Source: Candidatus Daviesbacteria bacterium RIFCSPLOWO2_01_FULL_39_12
GTDB lineage: Bacteria; Patescibacteriota; Microgenomatia; Daviesbacterales; UBA10151
Reading direction: 5' to 3'
Length of the DNA: 40,788 nucleotides
NCBI GenBank assembly: GCA_001776905.1
Contig: MFDM01000011.1
Coordinates: 28,949 to 69,736 of the forward strand
The stretch's first letter is position 1. Every line of letters starts with the position of its first letter. Shown in pieces: positions 8,227 through 36,866 of the stretch. Both the position numbers and the translations under genes were made by a program. A model generated the notes under the pieces. The model did no database searches. It was not told the origin of the DNA and worked only from the letters and a program-made list of their open reading frames with translations.

Positions 8227-8256
8227 ATTATACCAAAAACTAGCAGTGTTTGTCAA
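8227..8256 (-). promoter_or_regulatory. Consensus promoter of the groES-groEL operon
   Basis: On the - strand TTGACA (8251-8256), an 18-base spacer and TGG-TATAAT (hexamer 8227-8232) form the closest match to the housekeeping consensus in the window. The -35 box overlaps the stop codon of the upstream nucleotidyltransferase-like gene. The predicted start leaves a leader of about 25 bases before groES with no clear ribosome binding site. No CIRCE element is present. Confidence 0.8.
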
Positions 8257-9137
8257 GGATTGATTATTCTTTTCAATTTTCGTTGATATCCAGAAAGAAC
8301 TTTAGGTCTAATATCATTTGGGTGGAAATATAATGCCCCATCTTCTATCCGTTCCATTCCTTGAGGTTTTCTCATTATCTTTAATTGAAACCATTTAGCA
8401 ATGTTTTCTACAATTGTCATTGCGAGCGAACTCTGTGAGCGTGGCAATCTAGATTGCTTCGTCGCTAACGCTCCTCGCAATGACGTATCTGGGGAAACCC
8501 AGTTTGGCAGAAACTTAAAAGTCCACTCATTATCCAAAAGATACTTGGAGTAAATCCCATCCCTCTGCCATAAAACCTTCATCTGTAATATTTCATGTGC
8601 AAGATAGATATCTTTGTTTCTTTGAGCTAATCTATCTTCTTCGAGTAAAGTATTTATACAAAGCTTTCCGGCAATTTTTCTGCCAAAATAGCCTACTTTT
8701 CTCCTTTGTCCTGTTAAAGACAGCAATCCCAATGCTAAAAGTCTTGAAATCCATAGGCGATTTTTACTGGTAACAATAAAAAGGTCAATATCATCTCTTT
8801 TAGAAGCATTCTCCATGGCTAAACCACCAGAGACACCAACCAATTTAACCCACGGAATCAGCTTTAAAAGTGAACTTAAAACCTGCGCTTTCCTCAAATA
8901 TTTTTCCGACTGTTTCTCCCTCCTCGTCCTTTTTACAACCAGCCCATCTCTTTTGGGCAAAAAATAATATCCCCCTTGACTCTTGACTCTAGACTCTTGA
9001 CTCAATCTTCCCAATGCTTTTTCCACCTGCCTTAAACTTACCTTTCTCCCAATCAACCATTTGTGTATCTCAAATATAGTCAATGGATAATCAAAAATAT
9101 CTGCATAAATTAAAGTTTTTAAGATCGCTTTTTCCAT
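8253..9137 (-). CDS. Nucleotidyltransferase-fold protein interrupted by two repeat elements
   Basis: 294 residues from ATG 9137; a TTG at 9161 is possible but lies inside murB and upstream of the -10 box. An N-terminal winged-helix-like region (ADIFDYPLTIFEIHKWLIG) precedes GVSGGLAMENASKRDDIDLFIVT, the GS...DxD pattern of the Pol-beta nucleotidyltransferase fold (kanamycin/MNT type). The reaction and substrate are unknown. Two repeats lie in frame: a 4x7-base array at 8976-9003 encoding part of SQESRVKSQGG, and the 69-base GTCATTGCGAG palindrome at 8416-8484 encoding about 23 residues. Both fall outside the recognisable domain. Start codon and murB start are 19 bases apart on opposite strands. 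Confidence 0.7.
   Translation of the reverse strand: MEKAILKTLIYADIFDYPLTIFEIHKWLIGRKVSLRQVEKALGRLSQESRVKSQGGYYFLPKRDGLVVKRTRREKQSEKYLRKAQVLSSLLKLIPWVKLVGVSGGLAMENASKRDDIDLFIVTSKNRLWISRLLALGLLSLTGQRRKVGYFGRKIAGKLCINTLLEEDRLAQRNKDIYLAHEILQMKVLWQRDGIYSKYLLDNEWTFKFLPNWVSPDTSLRGALATKQSRLPRSQSSLAMTIVENIAKWFQLKIMRKPQGMERIEDGALYFHPNDIRPKVLSGYQRKLKRIINP
8416..8484. repeat. GTCATTGCGAG palindromic element, copy 1 (69 bases, in frame)
   Basis: Perfect 11-base terminal inverted repeats GTCATTGCGAG (8416-8426) and CTCGCAATGAC (8474-8484) enclose a second perfect palindrome GCAATCTAGATTGC in the middle. Its length, 69 bases, is a multiple of three and it is read through by the nucleotidyltransferase-like gene. 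A diverged 87-base relative lies in tsaD at 21632-21718. No transposase is present, so it resembles a non-autonomous or REP-like element. Confidence 0.85.
8976..9003. repeat. Heptamer array (4 x 7 bases) in the nucleotidyltransferase-like gene
   Basis: Units in order: TTGACTC, TTGACTC, TAGACTC, TTGACTC. The same order, with one C-to-T change, occurs at 30183-30210 in the flippase gene. It encodes part of the peptide SQESRVKSQG on the - strand. Confidence 0.85.
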
Positions 9138-9143
9138 AAGCTG

Positions 9144-9150
9144 TATAATA
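9144..9150. promoter_or_regulatory. Symmetrical -10 element driving murB and the divergent gene
   Basis: The seven bases TATAATA contain TATAAT (+, 9144-9149) six bases before the murB ATG, and TATTAT (-, 9145-9150) seven bases before the ATG at 9137. Predicted starts fall on the two start codons, 19 bases apart, so both messages would be leaderless. Neither strand has a convincing -35. Confidence 0.6.
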
Positions 9151-9155
9151 ATCAA

Positions 9156-10079
9156 ATGCAAATTAAAAGCAACTATCCCTTGAAAAACATTACCACATTA
9201 CAAATTGGTGGGCTTGCCAAAAAGTTTGTTTCCATAAATTCTGTGGATGAATTAAAAGAGGCCGTCCAATATGCCAACACAAACAATCTGAATCATTTGG
9301 TGATCGGTGGTGGCAGTAATTTATTAGTTTCTGATGATGGTGTAGATATGTTAATTATCAAGAATGAAATAGGCGGGATAGCTTCGCAAGGTCTGACCTT
9401 GCAAGTTAAATCAGGTACTATTTTACAAGATCTGGTGAACTATTCCATTTCCCATGGACTATCTGGATTACAAAAACTTACAGGAATCCCAGGCACTTTA
9501 GGCGGAGCAGTTTATGGCAATGCCGGAGCTTATGGCCAAACGATTAGTGATCACATAACAGAAGTCGTATTCTATGACGGACAACATATCGCCACCCTAT
9601 CCAAAGACCAGTGTGGGTTTAACTACCGCGATAGCGGATTCAAGAGAAATCATAATATTATTTTAGAAGTCACTTTCCAGCTGGAAAAAGCTGATTCGGA
9701 CATTCTAGCTAAAGAAACAGCAGAAATCTTATCCAAAAGACTGGTTAAATACCCCAAAGGCATAAAATGCCCGGGTTCTTTTTTCAAAAATATAGTGACA
9801 GATACTCTACCTCAGGAAATCTTACAAAAAATTCCTAAAGAAGCCGTCGTCTACGGCAAACTTCCTGCAGGCTATTTACTGGAAAGCGTGGGTGCCAAAG
9901 GACAACAATTGGACGGTATAGAAATTGCACCTTATCATGCCAATTTATTTGTCAATAAAGGTAGCGGCAGCGCCACAGCCTTCTATGATCTGGCCAAAAA
10001 ATATGCTGATTTAGTCAAACAGAAATTCGGCATCTTATTAGAACCTGAGGTGCAGCTTATTAATTTACCCAAAATTTGA
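9156..10079 (+). CDS. murB: UDP-N-acetylenolpyruvoylglucosamine reductase
   Basis: 307 residues. MurB reduces UDP-GlcNAc-enolpyruvate to UDP-MurNAc with NADPH and FAD in the cytoplasm, the second committed step of peptidoglycan synthesis. The FAD-binding GGGSNLLVSDDG, the GIPGTLGGAVYGNAGAYG segment, the NYRDS arginine motif, CPGSFFKN with the catalytic serine, and the final LEPEVQLI glutamate are all present. The gene has no ribosome binding site; TATAAT ends six bases before the ATG, predicting a leaderless message. A palindrome of the CAAGGTC/GACCTTG type falls in the variable stretch at 9383-9405 (GGIASQGLTLQ). Confidence 0.96.
   Translation: MQIKSNYPLKNITTLQIGGLAKKFVSINSVDELKEAVQYANTNNLNHLVIGGGSNLLVSDDGVDMLIIKNEIGGIASQGLTLQVKSGTILQDLVNYSISHGLSGLQKLTGIPGTLGGAVYGNAGAYGQTISDHITEVVFYDGQHIATLSKDQCGFNYRDSGFKRNHNIILEVTFQLEKADSDILAKETAEILSKRLVKYPKGIKCPGSFFKNIVTDTLPQEILQKIPKEAVVYGKLPAGYLLESVGAKGQQLDGIEIAPYHANLFVNKGSGSATAFYDLAKKYADLVKQKFGILLEPEVQLINLPKI
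9383..9405. repeat. CAAGGTC-T-GACCTTG palindrome in murB
   Basis: A perfect seven-base inverted repeat (9387-9393 and 9395-9401) separated by one base, with flanks that extend the symmetry imperfectly. A similar palindrome (CGCAAGGCC, then GGCCTTG) lies in tsaD at 21915-21937; both encode the peptide ASQG followed by a hydrophobic residue or glutamine. It may be a diverged mobile palindrome or coincidence. Confidence 0.5.
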
Positions 10080-20613: not shown

Positions 20614-20850
20614 ATGGGAAAAGTATTTAAAAATGGCAATTCTTTAGCAGTAACAGTACCCAAAGCTTATGCTCACCAGCTCTCCATCAGAGATGGATCA
20701 CAAATTGAGTGGACAAAAACAACTCAAGGTTTAACCTTAACACCACAAAATAAAACTAAAGTCTCTGGCGTTGATCAAAAATTTGCCAAAATGGTGGATG
20801 AGTTCATTAAAGATCACAAAGACGTTCTGCAAGAACTCTCCCACAGGTGA
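20614..20850 (+). CDS. AbrB/MazE-fold antitoxin
   Basis: 78 residues. The N-terminal half is a SpoVT-AbrB swapped-hairpin DNA-binding domain (KVFKNGNSLAVTVPKAYAHQLSIRDGSQIEW). The C-terminal half (FAKMVDEFIKDHKDVLQELSHR) is the sort of tail that wraps a toxin. The stop overlaps the toxin start as GTGA. Doc toxins are classically paired with Phd-type antitoxins, so an AbrB-type partner is a hybrid arrangement. Leaderless transcription from TATAAT at 20602-20607 and autoregulation through the adjacent direct repeats are likely. Confidence 0.85.
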   Translation: MGKVFKNGNSLAVTVPKAYAHQLSIRDGSQIEWTKTTQGLTLTPQNKTKVSGVDQKFAKMVDEFIKDHKDVLQELSHR

Positions 20851-21245
20851 AAAATATCATTTTTCTTACAACCGAACAGGTTTTATTTATCCATGACCAA
20901 ATGGTTAAAAGATTTGGAGGCTCTTTTGGTGTACGTGATTTAGGCTTAGTAGAGTCTGCTGTTGCCAGACCTAAAGCTACTTTTGGCGGTGAGTATCTAT
21001 ATATTTCAATTTTTGATAAAGCTGCAACCCTACTCCAGTCTTTACTTAAAAATCACCCATTTGTAGATGGCAATAAAAGAACTGCATTATCTTCTACTGG
21101 TTTATTCCTTGAAAAGAATGGTTATAAATTGGTTAATCAACATAAAGAAGAAGTGGAATTTGCAATCAGGGTAGATAATGATAACTTAATTGTGGAACAA
21201 ATCTCCAAATGGTTAAAAGAGCATTCTGGTAAAATAACCAAATGA
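20847..21245 (+). CDS. doc: Doc-type Fic-family toxin
   Basis: 132 residues from the GTG that overlaps the antitoxin stop. The Fic core motif HPFVDGNKRTA (residues 70-80) has the Doc form, HxFx(D)xNKR, with H70, D74, N76, K77 and R78. P1 Doc phosphorylates elongation factor Tu instead of AMPylating targets; this protein resembles it in length and motif. No inhibitory (S/T)xxxE(G/N) helix is obvious, consistent with control by the upstream antitoxin. The stop overlaps the tsaD start as ATGA, placing a toxin in translational register with an essential tRNA-modification gene. Confidence 0.9.
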   Translation: MKNIIFLTTEQVLFIHDQMVKRFGGSFGVRDLGLVESAVARPKATFGGEYLYISIFDKAATLLQSLLKNHPFVDGNKRTALSSTGLFLEKNGYKLVNQHKEEVEFAIRVDNDNLIVEQISKWLKEHSGKITK

Positions 21246-22363
21246 TTATTTTGGGAATTGAGACCAGTTGTGATGAAACTGCTGCTGCTGTATTAACGAA
21301 TAACGATAATCGAATAACTATTTTATCCAATGTGGTGGCATCATCTGCTTCTCTCCAAGCTAAATATGGCGGGATAATTCCGGAACAAGCTGCCAGAGAA
21401 CAGATAAAAAGCATTATTCCAGTTATTGAGGAGTCCCTTCGACTCGCTTCACTCGCTCAGGGCAATTCTATTGAACTGGATGCTATAGCTGTAACCTATG
21501 GCCCGGGGCTAATTGGCTCACTACTGGTGGGAGTAGAAACAGCTAAGGTTTTGGCTACCACCTGGGAAAAGCCCTTAATTCCAGTAAACCACCTATTAGG
21601 CCATTTTTATGCTAACTGGATTATTCCTCCTGTCATTCCGGGCGAACGAAGTTCGCGTGGGAATCTTGATTTAAAAAAGATTGCCACGTCTCCGGCTTCG
21701 CCGGATCCTCGCAATGACAATTTGCGACTGCCTTCCTTCCCCTGTCTCGGTTTATTGGTTTCCGGCGGACACACAGATTTAGTTTTATTTACAGATCATG
21801 GTAAATATAAATATTTAGGTGGAACCAGAGATGATGCCGCCGGAGAGTGTTTTGATAAATGCGCCAGACTCTTAGGCCTACCCTATCCTGGTGGTCCGGA
21901 AATTGCCAAATTAGCCTCGCAAGGCCAGGCCTTGAGGTTCAAGCTACCTATTCCTATGAAAGGATCAAAGGACTTTGATTTCTCCTATTCAGGGTTGAAA
22001 ACAGCTGTAGCCAATCTTATGCACACCTCCGAGGTGGGCTTTGACTCCTCGGAGGTGAAACAGGATCTTGCAGCTTCCGTTGAAAATGCCATTGCTCAAT
22101 CTTTAGTTGACAAAGTTTTACTGGCCTTAAAAGTTTATCCTGTAAAAGATGTCATGGTGGCCGGAGGAGTGGCTGCGAATCAAAGATTAAAAGAGAATCT
22201 AGAGTCTAGAGTCAAGAGTCTAGGAAAGAACATTAAATTGCACATTCCCACGCCTCAACTTTGTACAGACAATGGAGTCATGATTGCCGCAGCTGCATTC
22301 TTTATTAAAAAGAGCATTAATCCTTTAAAGCTGCAAACAGACTCAAATCTGTCTCTATCTTGA
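21242..22363 (+). CDS. tsaD: tRNA N6-threonylcarbamoyladenosine synthase subunit TsaD, with repeat insertions
   Basis: 373 residues. TsaD moves the threonylcarbamoyl group to A37 of ANN-decoding tRNAs together with TsaB and TsaE. Motifs are intact: GIETSCDETAAAV, GPGLIGSLLVG, the metal histidines H117 and H121 (HLLGH), VSGGHTDLVL, RDDAAGECFDKCARLLGLPYPGGP, and CTDNGVMIA. Between H121 and SGGH the spacer is about 52 residues, against about 20 in the E. coli protein as I recall it. The excess matches an 87-base palindromic element read in frame (residues about 131-159). Smaller repeats fall in other variable loops. Start overlaps doc by ATGA. Confidence 0.95.
   Translation: MIILGIETSCDETAAAVLTNNDNRITILSNVVASSASLQAKYGGIIPEQAAREQIKSIIPVIEESLRLASLAQGNSIELDAIAVTYGPGLIGSLLVGVETAKVLATTWEKPLIPVNHLLGHFYANWIIPPVIPGERSSRGNLDLKKIATSPASPDPRNDNLRLPSFPCLGLLVSGGHTDLVLFTDHGKYKYLGGTRDDAAGECFDKCARLLGLPYPGGPEIAKLASQGQALRFKLPIPMKGSKDFDFSYSGLKTAVANLMHTSEVGFDSSEVKQDLAASVENAIAQSLVDKVLLALKVYPVKDVMVAGGVAANQRLKENLESRVKSLGKNIKLHIPTPQLCTDNGVMIAAAAFFIKKSINPLKLQTDSNLSLS
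21435..21462. repeat. TCGACTTCGCTC hairpin repeat, copy 2 (expanded core, in tsaD)
   Basis: Arms CCCT (21435-21438) and AGGG (21459-21462) enclose an enlarged core containing TCGACTCGCT and CACTCGCTC. It encodes the LRLASLAQG stretch of TsaD, a variable loop between helices. Confidence 0.65.
21632..21718. repeat. GTCATTGCGAG-type element, copy 2 (87 bases, in frame in tsaD)
   Basis: Begins GTCATTCCGGGCGA and ends CCTCGCAATGAC, imperfect inverted ends related to the element at 8416-8484. Inside are three further hairpins: GCGAAC-GAA-GTTCGC, a GTGGGAATCTT/AAGATTGCCAC arm, and TCCGGC-TTC-GCCGGA. The whole can be drawn as a cloverleaf. 87 bases equals 29 codons and the TsaD frame is kept. Confidence 0.8.
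21915..21937. repeat. Palindrome in tsaD (CGCAAGGCC ... GGCCTTGAGG)
   Basis: Imperfect inverted repeat encoding LASQGQALR. The protein length here equals that of ordinary TsaD, so this is substitution or coincidence rather than a clear insertion. It resembles the murB palindrome at 9383-9405. Confidence 0.4.
22024..22057. repeat. Perfect 11-base inverted repeat in tsaD
   Basis: CACCTCCGAGG (22024-22034) and CCTCGGAGGTG (22047-22057) with a 12-base loop. It encodes HTSEVGFDSSEVK, in a variable loop of TsaD. The arms are themselves partly self-complementary (CCTCCGAGG). Confidence 0.7.
22195..22222. repeat. Heptamer array (4 x 7 bases) in tsaD
   Basis: Units in order: GAATCTA, GAGTCTA, GAGTCAA, GAGTCTA, the reverse strand of the TTGACTC/TAGACTC arrays at 8976 and 30183. 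It encodes ENLESRVKSLG near the C-terminal variable loop. Confidence 0.8.
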
Positions 22364-28763: not shown

Positions 28764-29186
28764 TTAGTCCGCGGATTTTAATCTGGCATCAAGGGCTTGA
28801 TTTGCCAATCTGTCAGCTAATGTGTTCTTGGCCCTTACTACATGCTGGTAAGTGACTTGCTTAAAAGCATTTTCTAAATTTCTGATTTGTAAAAATAAAA
28901 TTTTGAGATGTTCTTTTTTAATTTTGAAACGTCCTGACAGCTGTTCCACCACCAATCGGGAATCCAGATAGAAGTTCAGGGTAGTTAAAGCCGGCTTGAA
29001 GTGATTTAAAACATAGCGGAATGCTTGTAAAACTGCGCTATATTCAGCCACATTATTGGTGGTTATCCCGATATACCTACCTTCCTTGTGTAATAATTTC
29101 CCACCCGCATCTTGCACTATAAAGCCATAGGACGAGAGACCAGGATTGCCTCTTGATGCACCATCAGTGTAAATCACCAGCTTCAT
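28764..29186 (-). CDS. rnhA: Ribonuclease HI family protein
   Basis: 140 residues. The four acidic catalytic residues of RNase HI are visible: D in YTDGASRGNPG, E in NNVAEYSAV, D in FYLDSRLVVEQL and D in NTLADRLANQAL. The family cleaves the RNA strand of RNA/DNA hybrids. The basic handle region of E. coli RNase HI is reduced, as in the compact YpdQ/RnhA-like group. The start overlaps the stop of the flippase gene as ATGA, so it is the last gene of the long run that begins at rpmH. Confidence 0.9.
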   Translation of the reverse strand: MKLVIYTDGASRGNPGLSSYGFIVQDAGGKLLHKEGRYIGITTNNVAEYSAVLQAFRYVLNHFKPALTTLNFYLDSRLVVEQLSGRFKIKKEHLKILFLQIRNLENAFKQVTYQHVVRAKNTLADRLANQALDARLKSAD

Positions 29187-30415
29187 TTTCGTGAGATTAA
29201 TAATAACACAGCTTGCATGATTAATATAAGATACTCAGAGATTACCGTAATTAACGATGCTGCCATAAATGAGTACTGCGGTATATAAATGAAGTTTAAA
29301 ATTATGTTAAATATTAATCCCAAGCTATAGATAATCAGCATTTGTTTGTACATCTTTTTGGCCACCATTATCCACATAAAAAGAGCGGATAAAAAATAGG
29401 CTGGAAAGCCAAAAGAAAGAATTTGCAAAGATATAGATGAACCACCAAATCCTGATCCTGTAATTAATTTAATAAGTTGAGGCGAGAGGGTAAATATGAC
29501 AAACGACAAAATAGCTGAAACCACAATCAACCCCAACGCAACCATTCTAATCTGGTTTTTAAATCTGTCTATTTGAAATTTTAAAGTCTCCAGCATCATC
29601 GGGTAAAATGCATTCATGATAAATGTGGGTAACACTAAAACGGTTTGGAATACGGAATAAGCCACATTGTAAATTCCGACCTGAGCTGTCCCTTTAATGG
29701 TAGAGAGAATGAATGCATCTGCCCTAAAGTAAACCACATTTAAAAGTAGTGTTGCAGCAATCGGCCAGGAAGTCTTAAATAAGTTTGTGGTATATCGTTG
29801 ATCGTAAATCGGGAAAACAACTCGCCAAAACTTTCTCACCAACAACAATGCAACAACAGCAATCATCATCCATCCCAAAAAATACGCCAGCATCAGATGC
29901 GGGATGGAATATTTCAAAAGGATTAGATAAACAAATACCGCCAATCCTAAAACAGTACCTATGCTGGATGCTATAACCGATAAATCGTAGCGCAGTTTGC
30001 TCTGAAATATCAGGTTACAGGTCACAAATACTGCCGAGGCCACGATTGCCAAACTACCAAATAAAACAGCCTGGGAAAACTCAGGTGTGGCAAACGGCCA
30101 AAAAGGAAGCAGCCCCACTGCCAGAACCACTAAAACAGCAGACCACATTATTCTTGCGCCTAACAACCTCTGCCATTCTTCCTTGACTCTTGACTCTAGA
30201 TTCTTGACTCTTCTCAAAACATGAGCATTGAATCCAAAATCCGACAACAGGAAGAATATGGCAAGATATGTTACTGCCAGTGTATATATGCCTGTTCCCT
30301 CCTCGCCAAAGTTCCTTGCAATAAGACCCAAAACTATAAACGTGGTGAGTGAACTTACTACTTTACCAATCAGTTGCCAAAAGGTTTGTTGAGAAATCTT
30401 AAGAAGATTTTGCAT
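29183..30415 (-). CDS. Polysaccharide flippase (Wzx/MATE-like MOP superfamily)
   Basis: 410 residues with about 12 membrane helices. The N-terminal ISQQTFWQLIGKVVSSLTTFIVLGLIARNFGEEGTGIYTLAVTY is typical of O-antigen and polysaccharide flippases, which move undecaprenyl-linked glycans to the outer face. It overlaps the ligase-like gene upstream by 17 bases and RNase H downstream by ATGA. A 4x7-base heptamer array at 30183-30210 encodes RVKNLESRVKE in a loop between early helices. It fits with the WecA-like and GT2 genes elsewhere in the window. Confidence 0.88.
   Translation of the reverse strand: MQNLLKISQQTFWQLIGKVVSSLTTFIVLGLIARNFGEEGTGIYTLAVTYLAIFFLLSDFGFNAHVLRRVKNLESRVKEEWQRLLGARIMWSAVLVVLAVGLLPFWPFATPEFSQAVLFGSLAIVASAVFVTCNLIFQSKLRYDLSVIASSIGTVLGLAVFVYLILLKYSIPHLMLAYFLGWMMIAVVALLLVRKFWRVVFPIYDQRYTTNLFKTSWPIAATLLLNVVYFRADAFILSTIKGTAQVGIYNVAYSVFQTVLVLPTFIMNAFYPMMLETLKFQIDRFKNQIRMVALGLIVVSAILSFVIFTLSPQLIKLITGSGFGGSSISLQILSFGFPAYFLSALFMWIMVAKKMYKQMLIIYSLGLIFNIILNFIYIPQYSFMAASLITVISEYLILIMQAVLLLISRK
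30183..30210. repeat. Heptamer array (4 x 7 bases) in the flippase gene
   Basis: Units in order: TTGACTC, TTGACTC, TAGATTC, TTGACTC, the same order as at 8976-9003 with one changed base. It encodes NLESRVKE on the - strand. Confidence 0.85.
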
Positions 30416-31640: not shown

Positions 31641-31682
31641 TGCTTCTGAGCAGAAATTAAAAATAGAATCAAGAATCCAAAT

Positions 31683-32189
31683 TTATGAGGCTGGAGCCTT
31701 TTTACCCTTAATTTTTGATTCTTGATTCTTGATTCTAATCACTATATGCCTGTCTCTTCCTTCCCCCATACTCTCAGACTCCACCCCTTCACTTTCGGAA
31801 ACCACCATATGGACAATTCTTCTCTGCCAGGCAGGCATTGGTTCAAGCTCCAATAGCTGACCTGTTTGCAAAACTTCTTTGGCCCACTCTGTGGCTTTGT
31901 GGGTTAAATCTTCCTCCTTTTGCTTACGCCATCCAGATACATCAATATGGACTCTCTTGTACCCCTCGGCTTCGCTCGGGGCAAGTTGCCTTAACTTTTT
32001 GGAGATCATCTGGTTAACAATCAGCTGTAAACTCTCCAAGGATTCACCCCTGGCACCAATCAACCTCCCAGCATCCTCAGTTTCAATTAACACATTTAAA
32101 GCCTCATCAGTCTCCTCAATCTCATAGCTCCCCTCTAAAAGAAGCAAGCCTAATAAGTTATCCAAGATATCTGACAATTGTTCTTCCAT
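31683..32189 (-). CDS. jag: Jag/KhpB-like RNA-binding protein (KH and R3H domains)
   Basis: 168 residues. A KH domain (VLIETEDAGRLIGARGESLESLQLIVNQMI) is followed by an R3H-like region (ATEWAKEVLQTGQLLELEPMPAWQRRIVHMVVSE ... VESESMGEGRDRHIVIRIK). Jag/KhpB binds RNA and is often encoded right after yidC, as here (three-base gap). The N-terminal Jag domain is missing. Two repeats are read in frame: APSEAEG comes from a TCGGCTTCGCTC hairpin (31962-31981), and the C-terminal RIKNQESKIK comes from a 3x7-base array (31715-31735). Confidence 0.88.
   Translation of the reverse strand: MEEQLSDILDNLLGLLLLEGSYEIEETDEALNVLIETEDAGRLIGARGESLESLQLIVNQMISKKLRQLAPSEAEGYKRVHIDVSGWRKQKEEDLTHKATEWAKEVLQTGQLLELEPMPAWQRRIVHMVVSESEGVESESMGEGRDRHIVIRIKNQESKIKGKKAPAS
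31715..31735. repeat. Heptamer array (3 x 7 bases) in jag, with inverted partner
   Basis: Three TTGATTC units in a row. GAATCAAGAATC at 31666-31677, just past the jag stop, is the exact inverse of 12 bases of the array, so the jag 3' end is enclosed by an inverted repeat. Confidence 0.75.
31962..31981. repeat. TCGACTTCGCTC-type hairpin repeat, copy 3 (in jag)
   Basis: CCCC arm, core TCGGCTTCGCTC, GGGG arm. It encodes LAPSEAEG between two conserved elements of the KH/R3H protein. Confidence 0.65.
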
Positions 32190-33032: not shown

Positions 33033-33229
33033 CTGCAGCTCCAAATTCTTTTTACTCCCATCCAGCTTCCTGTAAATACCCCGAATTCCCCAATCTTTTC
33101 TTTTGTATATTCTGAACAGCTTACTTCATATCTACATGCTCCGCCAGGAGCAAACAAGTTTAACAAACCATGGTCAAATGACAAATAGGTCTGATAAATT
33201 TCAATTAATTTAATCAATAATCTTTTCAT
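33029..33229 (-). CDS. yidD: Membrane protein insertion efficiency factor YidD
   Basis: 66 residues from ATG 33229, giving the family start MKRLLIKLIEIYQTYLS; an upstream GTG at 33265 is unlikely. The conserved CRYEVSCSEYTKEKIGEFG and the ending GVKRIWSCR match CRFxPSCSxY...RIxRC. YidD is a small membrane-associated helper of YidC. It overlaps rnpA by 20 bases and yidC by ATGA. Confidence 0.93.
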   Translation of the reverse strand: MKRLLIKLIEIYQTYLSFDHGLLNLFAPGGACRYEVSCSEYTKEKIGEFGVFTGSWMGVKRIWSCR

Positions 33230-33548
33230 TCTTAAGTTTTGATTCCAAATCCAATAATACGTCACCTGATTTTACCTTAAGTACCCCTACTTTGGGAAGA
33301 GCCACAATGTTGATGGTAGATGGTAGATGGTAGACGGTAGATTCGAAAGCCGAGGATATCAAACGTCTGGCCCTGTTTCGCTCTGTTGCTTTTTTAAAAA
33401 TACCGGATGAAACAGCAATACCAACCCGGGGATTTGTATTATCTCCCATTTTAATAAAAAGTTTGGCAAATTTAGTCTCTATTTTTTCCCCGGATGCCAC
33501 CCATTTGAAATCTTTTTTTAAATTTAAGCGTTGATGTTTTGGAAGCAT
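33210..33548 (-). CDS. rnpA: Ribonuclease P protein component
   Basis: 112 residues. The start [17 protein letters not shown] and the RNR-type motif KATERNRARRLISSAF mark RnpA, which binds the RNase P RNA to mature tRNA 5' ends. The segment after ISSAF is ESTVYHLPSTINIV, whose middle is encoded by a 4x7-base array (33312-33339) inside a variable loop. The start overlaps the rpmH stop by one base (TAATG). Confidence 0.94.
   Translation of the reverse strand: MLPKHQRLNLKKDFKWVASGEKIETKFAKLFIKMGDNTNPRVGIAVSSGIFKKATERNRARRLISSAFESTVYHLPSTINIVALPKVGVLKVKSGDVLLDLESKLKNEKIID
33312..33339. repeat. Heptamer array (4 x 7 bases) in rnpA
   Basis: Units in order: GATGGTA, GATGGTA, GATGGTA, GACGGTA, then GATT. 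The unit differs from the TTGACTC arrays, but the period and copy number are the same. Confidence 0.85.
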
Positions 33549-36844: not shown

Positions 36845-36866
36845 GCCCTGAGCGAAGTCGAAGGGC
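36845..36866. repeat. TCGACTTCGCTC hairpin repeat, copy 4 (between convergent genes)
   Basis: Arms GCCCT and AGGGC enclose the exact 12-base core (read on the - strand). It fills the 23-base gap between the dnaN stop and the stop of the convergent gene. No T-run follows on either side, so it is not a standard intrinsic terminator. Confidence 0.75.

Follow-up and report, generated by a model that had tools for sequence, protein, structure and literature searches.

The tsaD gene of the bacterial family examined here, which encodes the tRNA N6-adenosine threonylcarbamoyltransferase TsaD, is best read as a tolerant landing site for repeats of the REP and RPE kind and for 7-bp tandem arrays, with copies replacing one another; we give this reading a probability of roughly 0.7. 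Mobile-looking DNA appears to rewrite this core protein repeatedly while leaving it unbroken, because repeat families fill its loops in frame. The gene is essential in other bacteria. We analysed a window of 40,788 nucleotides (G000:C11:28949-69736) from a genome of 1.0 Mb in 34 contigs that is 95% complete (G000), together with 95 searched genomes of relatives. The size of the genome and its relatives suggest a Patescibacteria (CPR) origin.

Repeat features in the window's tsaD

The identity of TsaD is established by sequence (PDB TsaD match, E=4e-73) and by fold (Foldseek match to 3zet, E=2e-35). The gene, its five repeat features and further copies of these families or related arrays in the window are as follows.

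21242-22363, forward strand: tsaD, 373 aa, stop-free throughout
21435-21462, unstranded: F2, CCCTTCGACT-variable-CTCAGGG; residues 65-74, at the end of helix 47-73
21632-21718, unstranded: F1, 87-bp dimer whose two hairpins stand head to head (halves 21632-21666 and 21678-21718); codes for residues 131-159
21910-21937, unstranded: F4, palindrome AGCCTCGCAAGGCCAGGCCTTGAGG with core CAAGGCCAGGCCTTG at 21920-21934
22024-22057, unstranded: F3, REPIN-like double palindrome CACCTCCGAGG-TGGGCTTTGACT-CCTCGGAGGTG; residues 261-272
22194-22223, unstranded: F5, four 7-bp units (AGAGTCT), TRF period 7; residues 318-327, in a helix
8416-8484, unstranded: second F1 copy, in frame within ORF 8253-9161 (reverse strand)
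8975-9003, unstranded: F5 heptamer array in ORF 8253-9161 (reverse strand)
9387-9401, unstranded: F4 copy CAAGGTCTGACCTTG, in frame in murB (9156-10079)
30182-30212, unstranded: F5 heptamer array within the gene of a polysaccharide flippase (29183-30415, reverse strand)
31707-31736, unstranded: heptamer array CTTGATT in a khpB-like gene (31683-32189, reverse strand)
33312-33342, unstranded: heptamer array GATGGTA in rnpA (33210-33548, reverse strand)
36847-36863, unstranded: F2 copy, intergenic, just downstream of dnaN

As the earlier note had claimed, five repeat features lie inside the open tsaD gene, at the coordinates it gave, and they represent several unrelated element families, each of which is multi-copy in the genome. 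The TsaD motifs are unbroken, as it also held, with the catalytic and metal residues H117, H121 and S174-H177 forming invariant columns of the alignment. The repeats occupy loops, where it had placed them, and helix ends, and in the AlphaFold model the residues of F2 prolong helix 47-73 and those of F5 helix 314-326. The insert of about 29 residues that it described is the piece encoded by F1, and the gain relative to insert-free relatives is about 32 residues. The model (mean pLDDT 85.6) renders this piece as a disordered loop: 132-157 is the sole internal segment with pLDDT below 50, and the F3 block (261-270) has a pLDDT of about 70. Compared with relatives, F1 alone adds its full length. 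The other features, F2-F5, appear to overwrite loop sequence more than they insert into it, because they alter length by only 0 to 3 residues, with no net change at F4. The first 4 bases of tsaD lie within a small Fic/DOC-family gene (20847-21245), and the two genes are possibly translationally coupled.

Copies in other genes and beside transposases

The F1 copy in tsaD is an exact 87-bp GTCATT...AATGAC element with two inverted hairpins. The general layout is GTCATT(G/C)CGAG, a variable hairpin, GTGGCAATCTT, a short loop, AAGATTGCCACG, a variable hairpin and CTCGCAATGAC, and half copies occur as well as dimers. The genome contains 13-15 copies in all (12 matches and the further copy at 8416-8484); a pattern search recovers 15 half-elements, and its reversed-pattern control none. 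The inner sequence differs in all 72 distinct half-elements listed by the pattern search, yet it tends to self-complementarity, with a mean perfect stem of 4.5 as compared with 2.6 in shuffles and 31 distinct arms at least 5 long. F1 is not always coding, because some copies are intergenic or lie 5' of a start codon (L002-L005, L007). The copies at L004 and L006 lie immediately 5' of an ORF or at its 5' end and could represent leader hairpins or N-terminal extensions; one of these ORFs encodes ribosomal protein L1. By inspection, F1 copies at L015 and in matches in G022 and G023 carry an F2-like inner hairpin, which suggests that one palindrome family is nested in the loop of another.

The smaller families are likewise dispersed. 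The tsaD copy of F2, CCCTTCGACTCGCTTCACTCGCTCAGGG, had been described as an expanded hairpin; its location holds and the family has 10 genome copies (pattern TCGACT..GCTCAG, reversed-pattern control 0), but the hairpin is weak on its own. Relatives G006 and G038 carry F2 at the same place in tsaD (L055, L022). F3 consists of two odd palindromes flanking a GGCTTTGACTC spacer and is the window's sole perfect inverted repeat with arms of at least 11 and a loop of at most 30. Its half-palindrome CACCTCCGAGGTG gives 7 hits at 6 places in the genome (reversed-pattern control 2), and the element is identical at 34/34 positions in the tsaD genes of G000 and G020, which are 70% DNA-identical elsewhere. 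F3-like spacers with other arms were found in the murB genes of relatives, where a recurrent site (nt about 227-260) holds F3-like double palindromes with differing arms (L241, L245, L250, L251, L257). The weaker palindrome reported at 21915-21937 was borne out as the F4 core inside its longer palindrome, and the pattern CAAGG-N5-CCTTG has 7 genome copies (reversed-pattern control 0). F5 arrays occur at 5 places in the genome (reversed-pattern control 0). The window contains five period-7 arrays by TRF and four by a stricter script count, which found none at periods 4-6 or 8-10 in the window and none in 10 simulated sequences. At 31664-31737, a hairpin composed of inverted heptamer arrays (AGAATCAAGAATCC / GATTCTTGATTCT type), with arms of 14 bases, spans the end of the khpB-like gene.

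In the genome-wide count that the earlier note proposed, every family recurs outside tsaD, mostly in genes. When copies and their surroundings were read, most F1-F5 copies lay in frame inside core genes. Hosts identified by domain or PDB search include AtpG, Alr, PGK, Tmk, trigger factor, MurT, TopA, ArgS, UvrC, MurC, an ATP-dependent DNA ligase, a succinyl-CoA-ligase-like protein, a DUF359/cytidylyltransferase protein, MurB and a flippase; PurL, ribosomal L22 and a P-type ATPase were identified by eye from translation only. AtpG has a 9-residue insert exactly at the repeat element, and Tmk an insert of 5 residues.

Two of the families are associated with transposase genes. Three Y1_Tnp genes are present in the window genome, and Y1_Tnp occurs in 41/45 family genomes; the flanks of these genes bear hairpins. 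An F4-type core, CAAGGTCGGACCTTG, adjoins the genome's own Y1 transposase (L065), the exact F4 core of tsaD adjoins a transposase in G001 (L075), and the F3 half-palindrome adjoins a Y1 (PF01797) transposase in the relative G014 (L082). Among ~25 loci with an identified transposase gene, F1, F2 and F5 were beside none, and no GTAG tag was seen next to the F3/F4 palindromes inspected. The adjacency suggests that RAYTs may mobilise F3 and F4. On a short contig that may be a contaminant (G000:C18, L063), two phosphomutase-like fragments enclose a Y1 transposase with GGGACAGATACC repeats on its flanks.

tsaD in relatives and in comparison genes

A TsaD match was obtained in 90/95 searched genomes. 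The tsaD alignment comprises 49 genes, the window's included, of which 42 are from the same family; the split tsaD of G026 (L034) was left out. All 42 family ORFs are open and in frame. The loop after the HLLGH helix measures 30-51 nt in 12 of the 42 and 66-171 nt in the others, and at least one recognised repeat is present at sites A-C in 36/42 genes, giving 84 occupied site-instances, with several family genomes lacking any repeat at the classified sites. The content of these sites varies by species and includes F1-like, F3-like, heptamer-inverted and other element types; in the nearest relative (L014, 79% DNA identity), the position of the window's F1 is taken by a heptamer-type element. 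Units are present or absent in the same loops, as had been predicted, or are swapped for other families, but the small ones appear mostly to replace native sequence: at F2, F4 and the site A heptamers, length shifts by 0-3 residues in most genes for repeats 20-30 bases long. Neither residues shared among relatives with normal divergence nor a lack of repeats elsewhere in the genome, the outcomes that would count against the earlier note, was found.

Repeat type changes on the loop-masked tsaD tree number 20, 22 and 21 per site as compared with 22.6-25.0 for shuffled labels, with insert classes judged by eye on a tree of weak support; to the extent that such a tree and such classes allow, repeat type per loop appears to shift almost independently of the gene tree. 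The inverted heptamer arrays at site B of two distant relatives, L014 and L017, are identical at 75/81 positions, against 70.5% gene-wide. In the site B elements of L014, L017, L022, L025, L026 and L028, an A-rich spacer separates a heptamer (or octamer) array from an inverted one, and the tandem repeats double as palindromes. The site C F3 arms of L047 and L048 show species differing by paired changes. The tsaD of G028 (L039) has two copies of one long element (GKRGAPKTARSE...FGA..RQDPEKP); they lie in separate loops and share a reading frame. Site C of L038 and L057 shares an element of more than 100 bases (NEG..SP.AANSR..QDACVS.QVSG.ADRN) that is absent from the rest of the set and is probably another family.

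Because the tsaD copy served to define F2-F5, their co-occurrence in tsaD is not an independent statistic. A naive Poisson test of five families in one gene was dropped, its patterns having been drawn from that gene, and was replaced by comparison with dnaN, murB, the flanks and other phyla. Period-7 arrays are present in 22/42 family tsaD genes, 0/30 dnaN and 2/30 murB genes, and in 0/80 control tsaD genes from distant phyla, taken from a TsaD scan of named genomes. Their density is 31 in 47 kb for tsaD, as compared with 2 in 80 kb of flanks, 0 in 33 kb of dnaN and 2 in 28 kb of murB. Codon-shuffled genes have no period-7 arrays, and periods other than 7 (4-6, 8-12) are nearly absent in the tsaD set and the window. 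Protein length has a standard deviation of 28.8 aa for TsaD, 3.1 for DnaN and 7.5 for MurB. We consider tsaD a hot spot but not a unique one, because murB too has surplus hairpins (18/30 genes, against 5.8 in codon shuffles).

Explanations and likeness to known systems

On the landing-site reading, a small number of surface loops and helix ends in TsaD would receive short 7-bp tandem arrays and REP/RPE-like repeats that are dispersed, form hairpins and are non-autonomous, either by the arrival of copies or by templating. RAYTs would mobilise F3 and F4, and F1, F2 and F5 would travel by some other route. The loop DNA would be overwritten, for example by single-stranded hairpin or microhomology-templated repair; short-patch illegitimate recombination is a candidate route, on which the literature searched contained nothing. 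Selection would retain in-frame, stop-free copies alone, since folding of the enzyme core has to be preserved, and later copies of other families would displace earlier ones with a near-neutral outcome for TsaD. An account that we regard as unlikely invokes a characteristic or dedicated DNA process that writes hairpin or 7-bp-periodic DNA into core-gene loops in place of native sequence, at nearly constant length and with period 7 as its signature; tsaD loops would then be recurrent targets because a palindromic site attracts the next palindrome.

The heptamer arrays could alternatively be products of local replication slippage, unrelated to the palindromic elements, which would be the sole mobile ones. 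Unit sequences vary among species at one site, the arrays have no transposase link, and heptameric repeats are reported to be over-represented among bacterial SSRs (PMC4692102), all as slippage would have it; the restriction to period 7, the recurrence of an identical unit at several genome loci and the site B palindromes common to L014 and L017 tell against it, and we hold it possible but doubtful. Retention for function, as mRNA or DNA hairpins or as new protein surface under positive or structural selection, seems improbable. It would account for the complementarity kept inside F1 with at least 31 different stem sequences and for the paired changes at site C, although paired variation is also explicable by how new copies form, and both type and presence vary freely among relatives, several of which have no repeat, with F1 in only 35/95. 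Ordinary divergence of variable loops, with palindromes and heptamers as by-products of peptide or base composition, fits the facts that every site is a natural TsaD loop or helix end and that some copies shift length little. It is nevertheless refuted by multi-copy families throughout the genome with reversed-pattern controls of 0-2 and by the lack of period-7 arrays in codon shuffles, other phyla and dnaN, and we give it almost no weight. Equally remote is excision or splicing of the elements from RNA or protein in the manner of a mini-intron or mini-intein: hairpin ends could juxtapose splice borders, but splicing would not demand that 42/42 genes be in frame and stop-free over their occupied sites, and Rfam at gathering thresholds gave no match anywhere in the window.

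The landing-site reading has consequences beyond this gene. In-frame 'selfish' palindromes have hitherto been seen mainly as a peculiarity of Rickettsia and Wolbachia, scattered REP cases aside; in this small-genome lineage palindromes would be a normal part of protein-loop building, with two families tied to candidate transposases. Since many species, recurrent sites and differing families are available, REP-like spread, the targeting of palindromes by palindromes and the preference for heptamers are testable. Such loops would be DNA-driven rather than protein-driven, a warning for structural interpretation and annotation.

The likeness to Rickettsia palindromic elements proposed in the earlier note is right in kind. 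RPE-1 to RPE-7 were described by Ogata et al. 2000 and reviewed in PMC2229807, with RPE-4/6/7 treated in PMC3767692. In-frame palindromes inside conserved protein genes are common to RPEs and the families here (PMC2229807), and differing types at neighbouring sites of orthologous genes are found in both. The ends of RPE-4/6/7 are ATGAC-rich as in F1, a likeness by description rather than by alignment to RPE sequences (PMC3767692). RPEs are about 100-150 bp long with terminal inverted repeats; F1 is 69-87 bp with inverted-repeat ends, and the others are 28-34 bp. In contrast to RPEs, the present families are non-Rickettsia, the stems are strongly variable, several unrelated families and heptamer arrays share one gene, small elements appear to overwrite with little length change, and F3/F4 are tied to Y1 transposases, which is no known RPE feature.

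The CGTC-tagged REPs (Di Nocera et al. 2013, PMC3733652) include Neisseria dRS3 and Rickettsia RPE-4/RPE-6, and intragenic copies are known. As in that class, the F1 copies inspected have an unpaired TGTC or CGTC tag before the stem, the stem opens with AT (ATT..AAT), and the elements are mostly head-to-head dimers with no transposase partner. F1 has a stem of 5-6 bp with a nested variable hairpin and a CT(T) tail, whereas the REPs have a stem of 8-9 bp, a loop of 4-5 bases and a CCA tail. Judged by these sequence features, F1 appears to resemble the CGTC-tagged REP class (RPE-4/RPE-6) more closely than RPEs generally, with differences in tail and stem. F3 and F4 flank Y1 transposase genes as do RAYT/TIRYT-associated repeats and REPINs (PMC2817692, PMC3116915, PMC3733652), and F3, like a REPIN, pairs two oppositely oriented palindromes across a spacer; REPs are, however, mainly extragenic, whereas copies here are mostly in coding genes and the GTAG tag is absent where inspected.

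Heptamer repeats are known as cyanobacterial arrays, as TAACTGA in Beggiatoaceae (PMC4679880) and as GGGAATC in Xanthomonas (PMC4692102). Like F5, these are dispersed 7-bp units in tandem (head-to-tail), often in ~4 copies, but they are mostly intergenic or at gene ends, whereas F5 is mid-gene and in frame in core enzymes, and many different unit sequences occur here. In the open literature searched we found no description of the combined pattern of families; the element sequences appear as text only in unrelated contexts, and papers on the Candidate Phyla Radiation/Patescibacteria that mention palindromes or heptamers give no such description in their titles or abstracts. New with respect to existing RPE and REP knowledge are the co-occurrence of several families in one gene, the rapid turnover at hot-spot loops, the period-7 arrays and the apparent overwriting of loops with little length change.
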